Source of the DNA: Daphnia pulex
Taxonomy: Eukaryota > Arthropoda > Branchiopoda > Diplostraca > Daphniidae
Assembly: GCF_021134715.1 (NCBI RefSeq)
Contig: NC_060026.1
Span: 5,084,001 to 5,148,000 of the forward strand
Direction of reading: 5' to 3'
DNA length: 64,000 nucleotides
Below, piece after piece: positions 1,137 to 57,118 of this stretch. The notes beneath the pieces are model-generated. The model was not told the DNA's origin. It made no database searches and saw only the letters and a list, made by a program, of their open reading frames with translations. Numbering within the stretch: position 1 is the stretch's first letter; each line of letters starts with the position of its first letter. The position numbers were made by a program, and so were the translations under genes.

Positions 1137-1259
1137 GACATTGACTGTGTGCGACCTCTATATTTCAGCTGCTTCTCAGCAAACAAAAGAACAACAAAAA
1201 CGGGGGATAGGTGAGATATGGCGCTCAGGTGGGCGGACCTTTCCCTTAGACACATCAGA
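1137..1259 (+). repeat. left inverted terminal repeat of the DIRS-like element
   Basis: Reverse complement of 3742-3864 over 123 bp with one difference. Inverted rather than direct terminal repeats separate DIRS elements from LTR retrotransposons. Confidence 0.92.
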
Positions 1260-1288
1260 TCTCTTTTCGCTCTCGTTGTGCAAACATC

Positions 1289-2162
1289 ATGTCGGATCCC
1301 GAACAGTCGAGCGATTCTAGCTCAAATTCTAGTAGTTCAGGCTCCGACTCATCAAGAAGAGGAGGCGTAAAGAAATTTCGTCTCTCAAGTGAAAAGTCAG
1401 CTAGTTTGGCCGACTGGGTCGTATCGGGTTTAGATGACACTCGAGCGAAAAGTGCTAGAGAGGCCTTTAGACCCAAACTATATAAAGAAGAACGCCAACC
1501 TGCTGATCAACCCCAATCTAGATGATGCATTCTACATCCGGCTGAAGGCAGTTAAGTCATCTTCGGCAGCCAAAACCAACATCGACCCAATCGAGAAAAT
1601 CTACAGGAACCAAACCTTTAAGATACTTGACTTAGTCAAGCCCATCATGTTTCTAGCAAGTCAGCTCAAGAAGAAGAAGAAATCCCGAGCCGACGCCAAG
1701 GCGGTCAAAACAGCTCTGAAGCTCTGGGCGGTGGTGTACCACGACATCACGAACGCGCGACGCCGCAACATTCTGGCCCAAATCTACCCACAGAATATTG
1801 GGCTGCTAGACGACAAGGCTGTCCTGCCAACGGGTGGGGAACACCTCTTCGGTTCGAAGTTCACCCAGGCCCTGGTCGAGCAAGTGAAAACTCTGAACGC
1901 TCTCGAAAATGCGGGAGGCCCTCGCGCGTCCGGATCTAAAGGTGGCCATGATCAACGCCAAGCGAATCGCGATTTCAGCCACCCTCCTTCATCTTCAGGC
2001 GGTCGCTATTCCAATTTTAAAGGATCTCGGTATGTCCAATCTATTCTCTTTTCCTATTATGTTTTTTTTTCTCCTGGACGCATAGCGCGTTTTATGTTGA
2101 ATTGTCAAGACCGGCTTTCGATCGGTGGAATTTATCAACGGTGGCCCAATATCTACAACTAA
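1289..2162 (+). pseudogene. gag-like ORF1 remnant of the DIRS-like element
   Basis: An acidic/serine-rich start is followed by a stretch with the helical pattern common in DIRS ORF1 proteins (LVKPIMFLASQLK, then a Lys/Arg-rich run) and a Gly/Ser/Arg-rich tail. It is disrupted. The assignment to DIRS gag is by recalled family resemblance plus position just inside the left ITR. Confidence 0.6.
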
Positions 2163-2359
2163 ATTCTATTTGTGATCCCGTCCAACTCTCTATTCAGCCA
2201 AAGGGGCACCTCGTTTAGACACGCAATTCGGGAGCGGATTGGCTCACCAAATTGAACTTGAATGACTCATACTTGTCCGTCTCAATTTTTCTTTTTTGGA
2301 AGGCCTTTTGAAATTCCTTCAGTTTAAATGGGGGTTGGGGCGTTTTTCTCGAATTCGTG

Positions 2360-2375
2360 CCCCCCCCCCCCCCCC
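2360..2375 (+). repeat. C16 homopolymer inside the DIRS-like element
   Basis: Sixteen consecutive C residues, followed by a T-rich run. It is probably replication slippage, and the exact length may be a sequencing artefact. Confidence 0.8.
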
Positions 2376-2927
2376 TTCTTTTTTAAACTCAAAGTGATGG
2401 GCGTTCACCAGACTATTAAGGGGAGTGGTAACCTTCCTGCGGAAGAACGACCTTCGCCTCGAATTTTACCGGGATGAGATTTTAATCTCGGCGCACTTGT
2501 ATAGCCTCAAGTATAGCTTTGCCCCAGCACACTTCCGTGCTCTTCGGATCCCCCTAGATCCCAAGCCGGATGATCATCTGATCAGGTCGAGAGAACAATT
2601 ACGTTTCGGAAGAGGCTCGTAGAAGTCCTTCTCGGGTGGTTTCAAAGGCAGATTTTACATCTGGCCGTCCGCTCATTTTTTTCCCGACGGCGGATTTGTC
2701 CATTGCGTCGGATGCATCCTTTTAAAGAAGGGAGGGGGGGCAGTATGGAACGAATAAGGACTAGGAAACTAGCCGAGATTGCCCTAGCAACACCACTGAC
2801 CTAACCCGTCCCTGATAGAGCTAGCAACGGAAATTCCGCTCCTTCTCTTCCCATCCAAGTAGGCTGATCTCCCCGTTGGGGGAGGGTCATCCATTGACAG
2901 GAACGAATCCATCTGTGTTATCGCTCG

Positions 2928-3191
2928 GTGGTTCTCCGGAGTTGTCTGGAAGAACGAGCCTTTCCGAAGGAAATTATCGAGCTCATACTGGGAGCAATTC
3001 AATCGAATACGCACCCTGCATACCAGTCCGCTGAGGTCGCTTGGAGCAGTTGGTGTAATCAACGGAACCACAATTCTCTGTTGTCTGGCGTCAAGGAGGT
3101 ATTAGCTTTCCTTGTTAATTTTCATTCCAGCAAGAGCTGCAGCACGGTGGGAAGGAACCCTCCGACAACTAATCGCACGAAAGAGTATTGA
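2928..3191 (+). pseudogene. tyrosine-recombinase-like remnant of the DIRS-like element
   Basis: The translation resembles the N-terminal SAM-like/core-binding part of DIRS and Ngaro recombinases: a helix ending in ILGAIQSNT, then HPAYQSAEVAWSSWC and a VLAFLVNF helix. In that family a chain of this form precedes the catalytic domain. The catalytic part is not recognisable here. The fragment lies before the internal complementary region, the normal gene order for DIRS. Confidence 0.6.
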
Positions 3192-3349
3192 CGCTTTTTA
3201 GACGAAATGCCGATTTGGTGGCGCATCCATCTTACACAGTCCAGCAGGGCTCCCACGAGCTCCAAATTTCAATCAGGCGTTGGTAACTGTCGACCATCAG
3301 GGGGTCTTATCTTATATCTTGTTATATCTGGTTATATCTTGCTTTAAAG

Positions 3350-3460
3350 ACACAGTCAATGTCGAACGAATTTACCGACAATTGGTAAATTGTTCGAGCG
3401 AGCTTTAGCTCGCGATGAACAATTTGGATTGTTGGGGGAATGGAGTGAAGACATTAACTG
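3350..3460 (+). repeat. internal complementary region (ICR) of the DIRS-like element
   Basis: 3350-3383 is the exact reverse complement of the left edge (1117-1150). 3380-3460 is the reverse complement of the right edge (3854-3934) with one mismatch. The two arms share a single AATT at 3380-3383, the tetranucleotide also present at both insertion edges. In DIRS replication the ICR serves as template to complete and join the ends into a circle, so this layout is strong family evidence. Confidence 0.92.
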
Positions 3461-3741
3461 TCTTCTAACCACCCATCCCGCCCACTTCATTCCCGTTATC
3501 ATTATTTTATTTAACTTGAATAAGGTGCAGCATCCGTTTATTGACGGCCCACTAATTCCTCTTTCCTTTTATCTTTTTGCTAGATCCAACAAGGATAGCC
3601 ACAGATCCAATTTCGACCTTGGCTCACCCAATCCCGCCAATAAAGGCGATCAGAACAACAACAACAAATAGGCCATTTGAACCATGGATCGCCTTACACA
3701 TTTTCCGTTAAGCCAGATCCACAGTTTGTTTTGCTTCCAAT

Positions 3742-3864
3742 TCTGATGTGTCTAAGGGAAAGGTCCGCCCACCTGAGCGCCATCTCTCACCTATCCCCCG
3801 TTTTTGTTGTTCTTTTGTTTGCTGAGAAGCAGCTGAAATATAGAGGTCGCACACAGTCAATGTC
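3742..3864 (-). repeat. right inverted terminal repeat of the DIRS-like element
   Basis: Inverse partner of 1137-1259. Beyond it the right end carries an extra ~70 bp (to 3934) that has its complement only in the ICR, as is normal for the unequal ends of DIRS. Confidence 0.92.
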
Positions 3865-5328: not shown

Positions 5329-5398
5329 GTATCGATGGTTCAGTGGTAGAATGCCCGCCTGCACGCGGGCGGCCCGGGTTCGGTTCCCCGTCGATGCA
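5329..5398 (+). pseudogene. tRNA-Gly-like with anticodon-loop deletion
   Basis: 70 nt. One base is missing from the anticodon loop (CTGCAC instead of CTGCCAC), so the loop has six bases. The T stem also has a C-C clash and the acceptor has U2. Not expected to decode. Confidence 0.75.
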
Positions 5399-8938: not shown

Positions 8939-9218
8939 CTGATTTATAAACTAATTTATATTATACTATTTGCGGAAGTGCAGAGTTTTTCTAGAAGTAG
9001 TAGATCCGGTTGTAAAATTGATTATCACCCGATTAAATTTAGTCTTTTGAAAGATTCAGCCTGAGTATTCAGGGGATTTCTTACTTTCTCAGTGGATATT
9101 TTCATCGCCACAAGCCTTGGTTTCCATACTGAAAGCTGACCGGCTTGGGTGTAGTCGACGGCTACAGCAGACGGGACGTCACCGTTGATATTTAATCAAA
9201 AATCTTTCCTATGGCCCA

Positions 9219-15751: not shown

Positions 15752-16479
15752 CTGAGTTATAACCTAATTTATATCATACTACTTGCGGAAGTGCAGAGTT
15801 TTTCAAGAAGTAGTAGATCCGGTTGTAAAATTGATTATCCCTGAGGTATATTTATATACGAAGGTCCTTAACAATATAGGGTGTGGGGTATAGGGGGTAG
15901 GATAGTAGTAGCTAGTAGTGAAATTCAGAGGGTTTAATGTCCATTTTGTAATCCTTTATACGTTTCTTCCCTGAATGACCAATCTTCACCAAATTTTGTA
16001 CATAATTCTGTCCAAATTTAATACATTGCGTAACGGGGTTTAGATTTGTTTTTATTACTGTTTTAGAAATTTAATTTGCGTATTTGTTACCTAGCTGGTT
16101 GCCGAATCCTAGTTAGTGAATTCGCTTTTTTGCGTAACCTTCCAACTGTCAGTGCATGCTCAGTGTAAACAAAAAGAAAAAAAAAGTTTGGATTTTCCCT
16201 AGCAAGACAAGTTTTCTGCTATGGGAGTGGAGAGTATTAATTATTTGATTTGGTTGTTATGTTCGATTTCGATTTCGTCTTTATTCTTCTTTTTACTTTG
16301 TATTTTCCCACTCTTATTTTTTTAACCCTTTTTGTTTTATTATTACCTCTTTTTGTTTACTATTTTTTATCTTGATTTTAATAAATTTGGTTGTCCAAGT
16401 AAAATTTCCATGCCTCCTTTTTTAACAGTAAGTCATCAACCAAGAAGTTTAGGAACATTTTAAAAATGTTAGATTATAT

Positions 16480-16720
16480 TCATTTTGAAGCTCTGGGTCA
16501 TCTCTCCCTTCTTCCTCTGTCCTCTTCTCGGTCATCAAGATCTTCTTGCGGTCGTGAAGAGTTACCACCAATCTTCCACTTCCATTTACCTCCGAAAGCT
16601 TATTAAGAGGAATTTTTTAAAAAATTACAAACTTAGTTTTCCTTTCCGACTTGATCGAGATTAGAACTCCGAACCATGCGAATGGCTGTCTGGGTTGATG
16701 ACCATTAGACCGTCATTGTT
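16480..16720 (-). mobile_element. tRNA-derived SINE, copy A (older)
   Basis: On the - strand an A-box-like TGGTCTAATGG-type motif (complement at 16702-16713) is followed ~35 nt later by a B-box-like GAGTTCTAATCTC (16657-16669). Next come an AT-rich link and a body with GGAGGTAAATGG-like sequence, ending towards 16480. The B box is less perfect than in copy B. The family is not recognised. Confidence 0.6.
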
Positions 16721-16863
16721 ATATCATTGGAAGGGAAAAAATGGCTATGATGGTAGCTCGCTATCTATAAGCCAAAACTCATGTAATGCAACATGTGACC
16801 GCATGATATAATTGTATTGTTACTATAGTAATAACTGTTACTTTAACTTAATATAAACATGAA

Positions 16864-16912
16864 GTGCGACGTGGGGTGGCGGGGCGAAGCCTCAGCCACA
16901 CCCAAGTCGCAC
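16864..16912. repeat. GC-rich 49 bp hairpin, copy A
   Basis: Outer arms GTGCGAC and GTCGCAC are perfect complements. Inside lie GTGGGGTGGCGGGGC and GCCTCAGCCACACC, which pair in part around a GAA loop. Flanks (an AT-rich tail with ATTAGTCAATTAGTTA) match copy B. It could be the terminal hairpin of a small transposable element. Confidence 0.6.
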
Positions 16913-17021
16913 CACTCATAATATTGACAGATTATTAGTCAATTAGTTAATAAGAATCAAATCATTTAAGAAAATAAAGGGAAACAGAATTTTCCAAATA
17001 TAATAGTATGTTTGTTCATAC

Positions 17022-17260
17022 TCATTTTGAAGCTCTGGGTCATCTTTCTCTTCTTCCCTTGTCCTCTCCACAGTCATCAAGATCTTTTAGTGGTCGTGAA
17101 GAGTTACCACCGATCTTCCACTTCCATTTACCTCCGAAAGTTTTTTAAGTGTAATTTTTCAAAAGTTACAAATTTAAATTTCCTCAATGACATCATCGAG
17201 ATTCGAACCTCGAACCATATGAGTGGCAGCCCGGGTTGCTAACCATTAGACCAACATTTA
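17022..17260 (-). mobile_element. tRNA-derived SINE, copy B
   Basis: On the - strand the A box TGGTCTAATGG (complement 17243-17253) and the B box GAGGTTCGAATCTC (complement 17198-17211) are close to the Pol III consensus. The tRNA-like head includes CTGCCAC, the same seven bases as the tRNA-Gly(GCC) anticodon loop, though the stem around it does not pair well. The body is similar to copy A. No long A tail is visible. Confidence 0.65.
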
Positions 17261-17551
17261 CATAAGGTCTAAGGGAAAGCGTGGTCCGGTTCGTGTGTAC
17301 ACCGAACAATGTTACGAAAGACGAAGTAAAGCTATAGTAATATCGCTAGCGACGCTACCATCGGTATCGATTTCGGAACCGGTCGTAAAACATTTAGGTT
17401 ATATGCCTGAATTAAGATTTTTTCAATGGTGGTTTAATCTAACTGCTATAAGAGCACATCCATTTCTCTATAGTTTATATGTAACTAATAATTTTTCCAA
17501 TTTCATGTTACTATAGTAATAAATGTTGCTATAACTTAATCTAAACATGAA

Positions 17552-17600
17552 GTGCGACGTGGGGTGGCGGGGCGAAGCCTCCGCCACACCTAAGTCGCAC
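17552..17600. repeat. GC-rich 49 bp hairpin, copy B
   Basis: Same structure as 16864-16912, with GCCTCCGCC pairing better with GGCGGGGC than the copy A version. Copy spacing is 688 bp, while the SINE spacing is ~541 bp, so ~150 bp was gained between SINE and hairpin in copy B (or lost in A). Confidence 0.6.
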
Positions 17601-17971
17601 CACTCATAATATTAACAGATTATTAGTCAATTAGTTATAAAGAATCAATTATGAAAGAGAATAAAGGGAAACAGAATTTTCCAAACGTTATAGTATGTAT
17701 TAATCTACCATAACCTTTATTTTCTGTCTCTTTAACGTTTAAAAAAATTACCGAAGGATATTACCGAATGAATCTTGTCACCCGATTAAATTTAGTCTTT
17801 TGAAAGTTTCAACCTGAGTAGTCAGGGGATTTCTTACTTTCTCAGTGGATATTTTCATTGCCACAAGCCTTGGTTTCCATACTGAAAGCTGACCGGCTTG
17901 GGTGTGGTCGACGGCTACAACATACGGGACGTCGTCGTTGATATTCGATCAAAAATCTTTAGTATGGTCGA

Positions 17972-31242: not shown

Positions 31243-31314
31243 TGATCTCGACGTGATTTGAACACGCAACCTCCTGATCTGGAGTCAGGCGCGCTACCGT
31301 TGCGCCACAAAATC
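31243..31314 (-). tRNA. tRNA-Trp-CCA: tRNA-Trp(CCA)
   Basis: Anticodon at 31280-31282. U6 wobbles with G67 and the rest is consensus. It lies left of the deleted unit. Confidence 0.9.
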
Positions 31315-31406
31315 CTGAGTTATAATCTAATTTATATCATACTAATTGCGGAAGTGCAGAGTTTTTCAAAAAGTAGTAGATCCGGTTGTAAAATTGATTA
31401 TCACCC

Positions 31407-31423
31407 GATTCCCGGTCGATGCA
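31407..31423 (+). pseudogene. tRNA-Gly stump (3' 17 nt only)
   Basis: The divergent spacer jumps from CACCCGATT straight into GATTCCCGGTCGATGCA, removing ~205 bp including the promoter boxes and anticodon. The deletion joins at a shared GATT. An identical stump lies at 38940. Confidence 0.9.
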
Positions 31424-31973
31424 TTTTGTATCATGCATCATGTAGAATCTACTCATTTAAGTTTCGTTGGATAAAATCCTTGCGCACAGCCTGTGCGGAC
31501 GGAACGTAGTGGTGATGGAAGCAATCTCTTTTCGGCGGACTCTATTTTTTCGTGCCGTTTTTGTGCATGTTAGTTAAATTTCCTTTGATAATACCGATTT
31601 GCGAAAAAACTATTTGTAGGAAAAGGGGTAAAAATGATTTCCATCGTAAGACTCTGTGTTTGCATTTTGGAAACCCGAGATAGTTATCGGTTCAAACTGG
31701 TTCCAGCTGTAGTCGTAATCGACATTCAGACGCAAACATTCGCCTTTTTCTAAACTAACGCTGTTGTATGTTATCCCATTCCCAAAACTTTAGTCTCCTA
31801 TACCTACAGTCGACATTTGTTGAAAAGAAGAAACCAGCCAAAAACATTTCCAGGTTAAGGATACATGAGTATTGAGAGAAATGGATTCCAATAAAATGTT
31901 AATTAATGTCACTAAAACAGTAGTCTGCAGAATTATCCATAAAAATATAACTCTACGTATGACGCTTCTTTTT

Positions 31974-32045
31974 TGATCTCGACGTGATTTGAACACGCAA
32001 CCTCCTGATGTGGAGTCAGGCGCGCTACCGTTGCGCCACGAAATC
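31974..32045 (-). tRNA. tRNA-Trp-CCA: tRNA-Trp(CCA) with C37
   Basis: Anticodon at 32011-32013. C37 is the only change from consensus. Confidence 0.75.
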
Positions 32046-38775: not shown

Positions 38776-38847
38776 TGATCTCGACGTGATTTGAACACGC
38801 AACCTCCTGATCTGGAGTCAGGCGCGCTACCGTTGCGCCACAAAATC
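38776..38847 (-). tRNA. tRNA-Trp-CCA: tRNA-Trp(CCA)
   Basis: Duplicate of 31243 at an offset of 7533 bp, with the anticodon at 38813-38815 and U6-G67 wobble. Confidence 0.9.
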
Positions 38848-38939
38848 CTGAGTTATAATCTAATTTATATCATACTAATTGCGGAAGTGCAGAGTTTTTC
38901 AAAAAGTAGTAGATCCGGTTGTAAAATTGATTATCACCC

Positions 38940-38956
38940 GATTCCCGGTCGATGCA
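38940..38956 (+). pseudogene. tRNA-Gly stump, duplicate
   Basis: Same deletion junction as 31407, copied as part of a larger block. Confidence 0.9.
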
Positions 38957-39507
38957 TTTTGTATCATGCATCATGTAGAATCTACTCATTTAAGTTTCGT
39001 TGGATAAAATCCTTGCGCACAGCCTGTGCGGACGAAACGTAGTGGTGATGGAAGCAATCTCTTTTCGGCGGACTCTATTTTTTCGTGCCGTTTTTGTGCA
39101 TGTTAGTTAAATTTCCTTTGGTAATACCGATTTGCGAAAAAAACTATTTGTAGGAAAAGGGGTAAAAATGATTTCCATCGTAAGACTCTGTGTTTGCATT
39201 TTGGAAACCCGAGATAGTTATCGGTTCAAACTGGTTCCAGCTGTAGTCGTAATCGACATTCAGACGCAAACATTCGCCTTTTTCTAAACTAACGCTGTTG
39301 TATGTTATCCCATTCCCAAAACTTTAGTCTCCTATACCTACAGTCGACATTTGTTGAAAAGAAGAAACCAGCCAAAAACATTTCCAGGTTAAGGATACAT
39401 GAGTATTGAGAGAAATGGATTCCAATAAAATGTTAATTAATGTCACTAAAACAGTAGTCTGCAGAATTATCCATAAAAATATAACTCTACGTATGACGCT
39501 TCTTTTT

Positions 39508-39579
39508 TGATCTCGACGTGATTTGAACACGCAACCTCCTGATGTGGAGTCAGGCGCGCTACCGTTGCGCCACGAAATC
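39508..39579 (-). tRNA. tRNA-Trp-CCA: tRNA-Trp(CCA) with C37
   Basis: Anticodon at 39545-39547. Duplicate of the 31974 copy. Confidence 0.75.
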
Positions 39580-48275: not shown

Positions 48276-48347
48276 TGATCTCGACGTTATTTGAACACGC
48301 AACCTCCTGATCTAGAGTCAGGCGCGCTACCATTGCACCACGAAATC
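48276..48347 (-). tRNA. tRNA-Trp body with anticodon CUA (amber-reading), T stem weakened
   Basis: The loop CTCTAGA carries CTA at 48313-48315, which reads UAG. A61 breaks the conserved 53-61 pair of the T arm. U11-G24 and T17 are shared with the two sister CUA copies. Probably weak or inactive because of A61. Confidence 0.75.
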
Positions 48348-48627: not shown

Positions 48628-48698
48628 GCATCGATGGTTCAGTGGTAAAATGCTCCCCTGCCACGCGGGTGGCCTAGGTTCGGTTCTCGAACGATGCA
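48628..48698 (+). pseudogene. tRNA-Gly(GCC)-like, heavily mutated
   Basis: Anticodon GCC remains at 48660-48662, but changes hit the D stem (A22), anticodon stem (C30), both T-stem strands and the acceptor. Same lineage as 50602 and 52548, each in the same unit as a CUA tRNA-Trp. Confidence 0.75.
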
Positions 48699-50249: not shown

Positions 50250-50321
50250 TGATCTCGACGTGATTTGAACACGCAACCTCCTGATCTAGAGTCAGGCGCG
50301 CTACCATTGCACCACGAAATC
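50250..50321 (-). tRNA. structurally intact tRNA-Trp body with anticodon CUA (amber suppressor candidate)
   Basis: Anticodon stem-loop CCTGA-CTCTAGA-TCAGG places CTA at 50287-50289, complementary to the stop codon UAG. The only other changes from consensus are T17 in the D loop and U11, which wobbles with G24, so every stem pairs. Both internal promoter boxes, discriminator A and flanks look normal. Suppressors of this form are known from selection in bacteria, where tRNA-Trp(CUA) is charged largely with glutamine. Eukaryotic charging of such a tRNA is uncertain. It could be a neutral mutant in a redundant array or a natural suppressor. Confidence 0.9.
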
Positions 50322-50601
50322 CTGAGTTATTATCTAATTTTTATCATACTACTTGCGGAAGTGCAGAGTTTTTCAAGAAGTAGTAGATCCGGTTGTAAAA
50401 TTGATTATCACCCGATTAAATTAAGTCTTTTGAAAGTTTCAACCTGAGTAGTCAGGGGATTTCTTACTTTCTCAGTGGATATTTTCATCGCCACAAGTCT
50501 TGGTTTCCATACTGAAAGCTGACCGGCTTGGGTGTGGTCGACGGCTACAACAGACGGGACGTCGTCGTTGATATTCAATCAAAAATCTTTAGTATGGTCC
50601 A

Positions 50602-50672
50602 GCATCGATGGTTCAGTGGTAAAATGCTCCCCTGCCACGCGGGTGGCCTAGGTTCGATTCTCGGTCGATGCA
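50602..50672 (+). pseudogene. tRNA-Gly(GCC)-like, mutated (partner of the CUA copy)
   Basis: Anticodon at 50634-50636. A22, C30 facing C40, and a T stem with A51-C63. Likely non-functional. Confidence 0.7.
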
Positions 50673-51222
50673 TTTTGTATCATGCATCATATAGAATCTA
50701 CTCATTTAAGTTTCGTTGGATAAAATCCTTGCGCACAACCTGTGCGGACGGAACGTAGTGGTGATGGAAGCAATCTCTTTTCGGCGGACTCTAATTTTTC
50801 GTGCCGTTTTTGTGCATGTTAGTTAAATTTCCTTTGATAATACCGATTTGCGAAAAAACTATTTGTAGGAAAAGGGGTAAAAATGATTTCCATCGTAAGA
50901 CTCTGTGTTTGCATTTTGGAAACCCGAGATAGTTATCGGTTCAAACTGGTTCCAGCTGGAGTCGTAATCGACATTCAGACGCAAACATTCGCCTTTTTCT
51001 AAACTAACGCTGTTGTATGTTATCCCATTCCCAAAACTTTAGTCTCCTATACCTACAGTCGACATTTGTTGAAAAGAAGAAACCAGCCAAAAACATTTCC
51101 AGGTTAAGGACACATGATTATTGAGAGAAATGGATTCCAATGAAATGTTAATTAATGTCACTAAAACAGTAGTCTGCAGAATTATCCATGAAAATATAAC
51201 TCTACGTGTAACACTTCTTTTT

Positions 51223-52195: not shown

Positions 52196-52267
52196 TGATC
52201 TCGACGTGATTTGAACACGCAACCTACTGATCTAGAGTCAGGCGCGCTACCATTGCACCACGAAATC
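52196..52267 (-). tRNA. tRNA-Trp body with anticodon CUA, anticodon stem weakened
   Basis: CTA at 52233-52235, with the same T17 and U11 as the sister copies. U43 faces C27 at the base of the anticodon stem. Confidence 0.75.
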
Positions 52268-52547: not shown

Positions 52548-52618
52548 GCATCGATGGTTCAGTAGTAAAATTCTCCCCTGCCACGCGGGCGGCCTAGGTT
52601 CGATTCTCGGTCGATGCA
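52548..52618 (+). pseudogene. tRNA-Gly(GCC)-like, heavily mutated
   Basis: Anticodon at 52580-52582. D-loop G18 or G19 is lost, with A22, C30 and T-stem changes. Third member of the decayed lineage linked to CUA. Confidence 0.75.
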
Positions 52619-57046: not shown

Positions 57047-57118
57047 TGATCTCGACGTGATTTTAACACTAAACCTCCCGATCTGAAGTCAGGCGCGCTA
57101 CCGTTGCGCCACGAAATC
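57047..57118 (-). pseudogene. tRNA-Trp body with anticodon UCA (UGA-reading), T arm damaged
   Basis: The loop CTTCAGA carries TCA at 57084-57086, complementary to the stop codon UGA. It has the damaged T stem of the 24452 lineage and A56 in place of the invariant C56, so the B box is hit. The sister copy at 56081 keeps CCA, so the anticodon change is recent. It is much too short and of the wrong form for tRNA-Sec. Confidence 0.7.

Follow-up and report, generated by a model that had tools for sequence, protein, structure and literature searches.

A tRNA-Trp copy with an amber-reading anticodon in a tandem tRNA array of Daphnia pulex, probably drifted and unselected

Of ten identical tRNA-Trp genes in C. 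elegans, eight have yielded the anticodon change CCA to CUA in suppressor screens, and the resulting genes (sup-5, sup-7, sup-21, sup-24, sup-28, sup-29, sup-33 and sup-34) are amber suppressors (PMC4999229). Expression of sup-7 without the promoter of its host gene is described as causing lethality and sterility in worms (PMC4999229). Here we analyse a tRNA-Trp copy of Daphnia pulex that carries the same change, located at 50250-50321 of a stretch of 64,000 nucleotides (hereafter, the window). In both species the change produces the same TCTAGA sequence, and in worms the mutations were scored by digestion with XbaI (PMC4999229). However, the worm genes came from suppressor screens, are otherwise identical and have proven activity, whereas the Daphnia copy is a natural member of an array, has two further changes and is a candidate suppressor. 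Since the worm suppressors work, suppressor activity of the Daphnia copy would be possible in principle.

Regarding the amino acid that such a tRNA would carry, the preliminary description of this locus stated that E. coli tRNA-Trp(CUA) is mostly charged with Gln. This is real, as a review confirms it, but it may not carry over to other organisms, because the plant counterpart is mischarged by LysRS; the same review lists the anticodon bases as part of the Trp identity in several organisms (PMC9976931).

Predicted stop-reading tRNA genes in the genome of a wild-type animal are also described in Schmidtea mediterranea, where SUP-CTA, SUP-TCA and SUP-TTA tRNAs were predicted and SUP-TTA was detected by northern blot (PMC7962491). 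Nevertheless, the planarian SUP-TTA has 17 genes and a northern signal (PMC7962491), whereas the CTA copies of Daphnia are three related, predicted genes, and a stem pair is broken in two of these. The cnidarians Hydractinia and Nematostella have comparable tandem arrays of tRNA genes; the descriptions of these arrays on which we draw make no mention of stop-reading copies (PMC11067881), whereas the Daphnia array has such copies. The SYY cluster of tRNA-Ser and tRNA-Tyr genes in Arabidopsis shares with our array the tandem units of two tRNAs, the redundant copies and the presence of tRNA-like pseudogenes. Most tissues keep that cluster silent, and it becomes active again in the root tips (PMC12308677).

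The array and its CTA copies

The array takes up most of the window and runs off its right end (Table 1), with 61 copies of tRNA-Trp and 58 of tRNA-Gly(GCC). At the gathering score Rfam matched 118 tRNAs, and the Gly copy at 48628 was not among them. We aligned 57 units, having excluded three of the 60 intervals between Trp copies (2914, 731 and 732 bp), and the divergence among these units was 3.0% on average and 7.4% at most. For some counts we used a core set of 51 units, in which six further units at the left edge were dropped.

Table 1. Coordinates of the array, of the tRNA copies with altered anticodons and of associated features, in positions of the window
Feature	Position	Strand	Source or remark
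Tandem array, units of ~973 bp, nearly all with Trp (-) and Gly (+)	4004-64000	.	ARAGORN, Rfam, unit alignment; continues off the right end
tRNA-Trp copy, CTA anticodon	50250-50321	-	ARAGORN and Rfam; 21/21 stem pairs standard
Anticodon CTA (array consensus CCA)	50287-50289	-	
TATA-like hexamer upstream of Trp (-22 to -17)	50338-50343	-	57 aligned units
tRNA-Gly partner of the 50250 unit	50602-50672	+	6 changes; Rfam 39.7 bits
Sister CTA tRNA-Trp, one broken T-stem pair	48276-48347	-	ARAGORN, pair check
tRNA-Gly partner of the 48276 unit	48628-48698	+	9 changes; found by ARAGORN, not listed by Rfam at its gathering score
Sister CTA tRNA-Trp, one broken anticodon-stem pair	52196-52267	-	ARAGORN, pair check
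tRNA-Gly partner of the 52196 unit	52548-52618	+	7 changes; 34.4 bits
tRNA-Trp, TCA (UGA-reading) anticodon, two broken T-stem pairs	57047-57118	-	ARAGORN, pair check
tRNA-Trp, CAA (Leu-type) anticodon	19564-19635		ARAGORN
tRNA-Trp, CAA (Leu-type) anticodon	21513-21584		ARAGORN

The preliminary description had proposed, from the letters alone, a foldable tRNA-Trp at 50250-50321 with all its stems holding, an anticodon at 50287-50289 that pairs with UAG, intact promoter boxes and only two other differences, a U11 and a T in the D-loop. All of this was borne out. The copy scored 64.6 bits with the Rfam tRNA model (cut-off 29), all its stem pairs are standard, as they are in 22 of the 61 Trp copies including this one, and it differs from the array consensus by exactly three changes: a C to T in the D-stem, which leaves U11 wobbling with G24, a C to T in the D-loop and the C35 to T of the anticodon. 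The A and B boxes are present and acceptable, matched by eye to the consensus motifs. As regards a Pol III T-run, the first TTTT downstream of the Trp gene is 28 nt away in each of the three CTA units, and its distance is 20-28 nt in 56 of the 57 aligned units. ARAGORN placed the copy on the minus strand, read its anticodon as cta and labelled it tRNA-Pyl, presumably going by the anticodon alone; the body does not fit a tRNA-Pyl, because only 3 of the 72 positions differ from the tRNA-Trp(CCA) consensus of the array.

One earlier claim did not hold, namely that the CUA anticodon makes this copy unique, since CTA is also present in two other copies, at 48276-48347 and 52196-52267. None of the other 60 Trp copies in the window, however, shares its complete sequence of 72 nt. 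The anticodon change creates a TCTAGA (XbaI) site. Of the five sites of this type in the window, the CTA anticodons account for three, and a fourth, at 8990, is next to the Trp gene of an array unit.

Altered anticodons were found in six of the 61 Trp copies, three of them CTA, two CAA and one TCA. Furthermore, ARAGORN labelled three of the 58 Gly copies as Val, Cys and Ala, and gave no assignment to one further copy. Anticodon changes are therefore common in this array, and reading of UAG is one of the various outcomes. The two CAA units stand apart on the best spacer tree and were grouped in 1% of 200 bootstrap trees; despite this separation, a single origin of both is compatible with the well-supported branches alone.

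Origin and fate of the CTA units

The three CTA copies have a single origin. Their units formed one clade (100/96) in a tree of the 57 units from which the tRNA columns had been removed, and a single clade based on spacers alone means one founding C-to-T change that was duplicated later. The CTA units occupy every second position of the array (48276, 50250 and 52196). A simple duplication of two units, to which this spacing pointed, was considered and rejected because the intervening units (49277, 51223 and 53169) are not close to each other, with 17, 28 and 29 differences between them.

Fourteen changes from the consensus are common to all three CTA units: three in the Trp gene, five in the Gly gene and six in 830 spacer sites. 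Not all of them are private to the CTA units, as four, namely two of the eight in tRNA genes and two of the six in spacer, were also seen elsewhere. The share of the founder's changes that fell in tRNA genes, 8/14, is higher than in the rest of the array, with a p of about 0.006, and the share of C:G>T:A among those tRNA changes, 7/8, is likewise higher, again with a p of about 0.006, both being post hoc values that rest on few events. Judging from this pattern, the anticodon change looks like one among clustered cytosine changes in a single ancestral unit. Decay of CpG as the sole source was rejected, since CpG sites account for only four of the seven common C:G>T:A changes of the tRNA genes and do not include that of the anticodon, and also because the higher variability of the tRNA genes persists at non-CpG sites. 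As the cause of the founder's changes, methyl-CpG decay and transcription-linked deamination are indistinguishable in these data.

After the duplication, the Trp gene acquired one change in the 48276 unit, one in the 52196 unit and none in the 50250 unit. Both changes break a stem pair, so that two of the three descendants, admittedly a small sample, are no longer intact, which argues against selection for the anticodon. The Gly partners have decayed as well: copies identical to the consensus score 66.6 bits with Rfam, and the Gly copies outside the CTA units have at most four changes each, except the one at 5329, which is shifted by an indel. The TATA-like hexamer upstream of the Trp gene reads TATAAA in 49 of the 57 units and TATGAA in five, and the form TAAAAA is confined to the three CTA units. 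As the five TATGAA units are not CTA units, a departure from TATAAA is not peculiar to the CTA lineage.

Constraint and mutation around the tRNA genes

The 46 distinct Trp alleles included 16 (35%) that break a pair, against 42% expected (p=0.37), and three that alter the anticodon, against 1.9 expected. Therefore, judged by such counts, the Trp copies are without detectable constraint. When changes were placed at random over these 46 alleles, which include the CTA change itself, the probability of a one-step CTA was about 0.32 and that of either CTA or TCA about 0.53. Three CTA copies with two new Trp changes between them provide very little power to detect selection.

Leaving the CTA units aside, the Trp body had 0.482 alleles per non-CpG site, against 0.397 and 0.367 in its flanks, and is thus not less variable than them. 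The Gly body had 0.264, against 0.640 in the 5' flank, and was much the same as the 3' flank (0.246). The lower value of the Gly body relative to its 5' flank suggests that some constraint may exist and that the array may not be wholly free of it. These counts on either side of each gene skip the sites that are gapped in more than two units.

In the core set, distinct alleles per non-CpG site numbered 0.46 for the tRNA genes and 0.58 for the 20 bp next to them; the value was 0.39 over 21-40 bp, 0.28 over 41-60 bp and 0.13-0.25 at greater distances. Variability among units is about 1.5- to 4-fold higher in the tRNA genes and their flanks of ~60 bp than in the distal spacer. When the positions were shifted circularly, this excess was matched by one of 972 shifts for the core set and by 10 of 972 for all 57 units. 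Both genes show it on either side, although weakly on the 3' side of Gly (0.263 against 0.15-0.17 in the distal spacer).

The peak of variability resembles transcription-associated mutagenesis, which Thornlow et al. reportedly described at tRNA genes in 2018. A paper that cites it gives elevated rates in the flanks together with strong purifying selection in the bodies (PMC8113476); in contrast, the Trp bodies of our array are unprotected. By analogy, the peak may be a sign of germ-line transcription of the array, now or in the past, and consequently some expression of the CTA copy is possible. Such a peak may also serve as a record, within one genome, of mutation at transcribed tRNA genes.

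Readings of the copy, and other features of the window

In our opinion the copy at 50250-50321 is a drifted, unselected tRNA-Trp copy of a large eukaryotic tandem array, a reading to which we give a probability of about 0.87. From its sequence it is structurally competent, and most likely at most a weak and incidental amber suppressor. One ancestral unit would have acquired several changes of the C-to-T type in both of its tRNA genes, one of which would have turned CCA into CTA, and the turnover of the array would then have copied this unit to three places. With dozens of normal copies around it, the variant would be tolerated, either silent or weakly transcribed, and its tRNA, if transcribed and charged, would compete at most weakly with termination at UAG. 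We infer that tolerance comes from dilution and that the CTA copy has no or weak expression. A counterpoint to drift is that the copy is structurally perfect and that its lineage is present in three units. Under this reading, a large redundant tRNA array can hold stop-reading genes by drift alone, and where a genome has such an array, the prediction of a suppressor tRNA is by itself no evidence of read-through or of a change in the code. If the copy is expressed, it would provide a direct test of the level of natural suppression that an organism tolerates.

A related and unlikely reading starts from the variability peak: in an array transcribed in the germ line, transcription-linked mutation would produce anticodon variants recurrently, stop-reading tRNAs of intact structure among them, and the 50250 copy would be weakly expressed, with low-level read-through of UAG. 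If so, arrays of this kind would be a natural source of standing suppressor variation.

The preliminary description had presented the copy as a natural amber-suppressor candidate. The part of this claim that stands is that it is foldable, pairs with UAG and has acceptable promoter boxes. Its status as a notable natural suppressor found no support: together with two relatives it forms a drifted set within a large array in which altered anticodons are frequent, its Gly partner is decayed, each of its two sisters has a broken stem pair and no signal of selection appeared. It is accordingly very improbable that it is a selected suppressor, expressed, charged with Trp (or Lys or Gln) and giving useful read-through at chosen UAG codons. 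The intact structure, the eight C. elegans genes with the same change that suppress amber (PMC4999229) and the planarian predictions, with SUP-TTA seen on a northern blot (PMC7962491), speak for it. Nevertheless, the sister copies and the Gly partners have already deteriorated, the CTA allele is likely by chance, and the lethality and sterility caused in worms by sup-7 without its host gene's promoter (PMC4999229) also weigh against it.

We give very little credence to a sequencing or assembly artefact with CCA as the true anticodon. Long arrays of nearly identical units are certainly hard to assemble; however, the change is found in three units together with 13 further common changes (four of them also present elsewhere), and the clade is supported without the tRNA columns. 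Finally, that UAG is a sense codon and this copy one of the tRNAs decoding it is extremely improbable in spite of the presence of a UAG-reading gene, since CTA occurs in only three of the 61 Trp copies, two of these with a broken stem pair, and the UGA-reading copy in the same array fits drift.

Some other features of the window can be mentioned. The unit at 50250-51222 had no similar sequence in phage and plasmid DNA, and an exact pattern of 34 bases from the spacer had no match in viral and prokaryote contigs. Two units are short, with 731 and 732 bp between their Trp copies (31243-31974 and 38776-39508), and ARAGORN did not find a Gly gene in them. An insert of ~1.9 kb in one unit (15840-17965) interrupts the array; within it are two pieces related to one another, both of which have a tRNA-like stretch as well as a hairpin-like motif rich in GC, and by eye it is SINE-like. 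Another insert, decayed, is located at 1141-3860 and contains an open reading frame of 242 amino acids (1434-2162) for which there was no Pfam match. By eye it has inverted terminal stretches of ~100 bp, and it may resemble a retrotransposon of the DIRS type.
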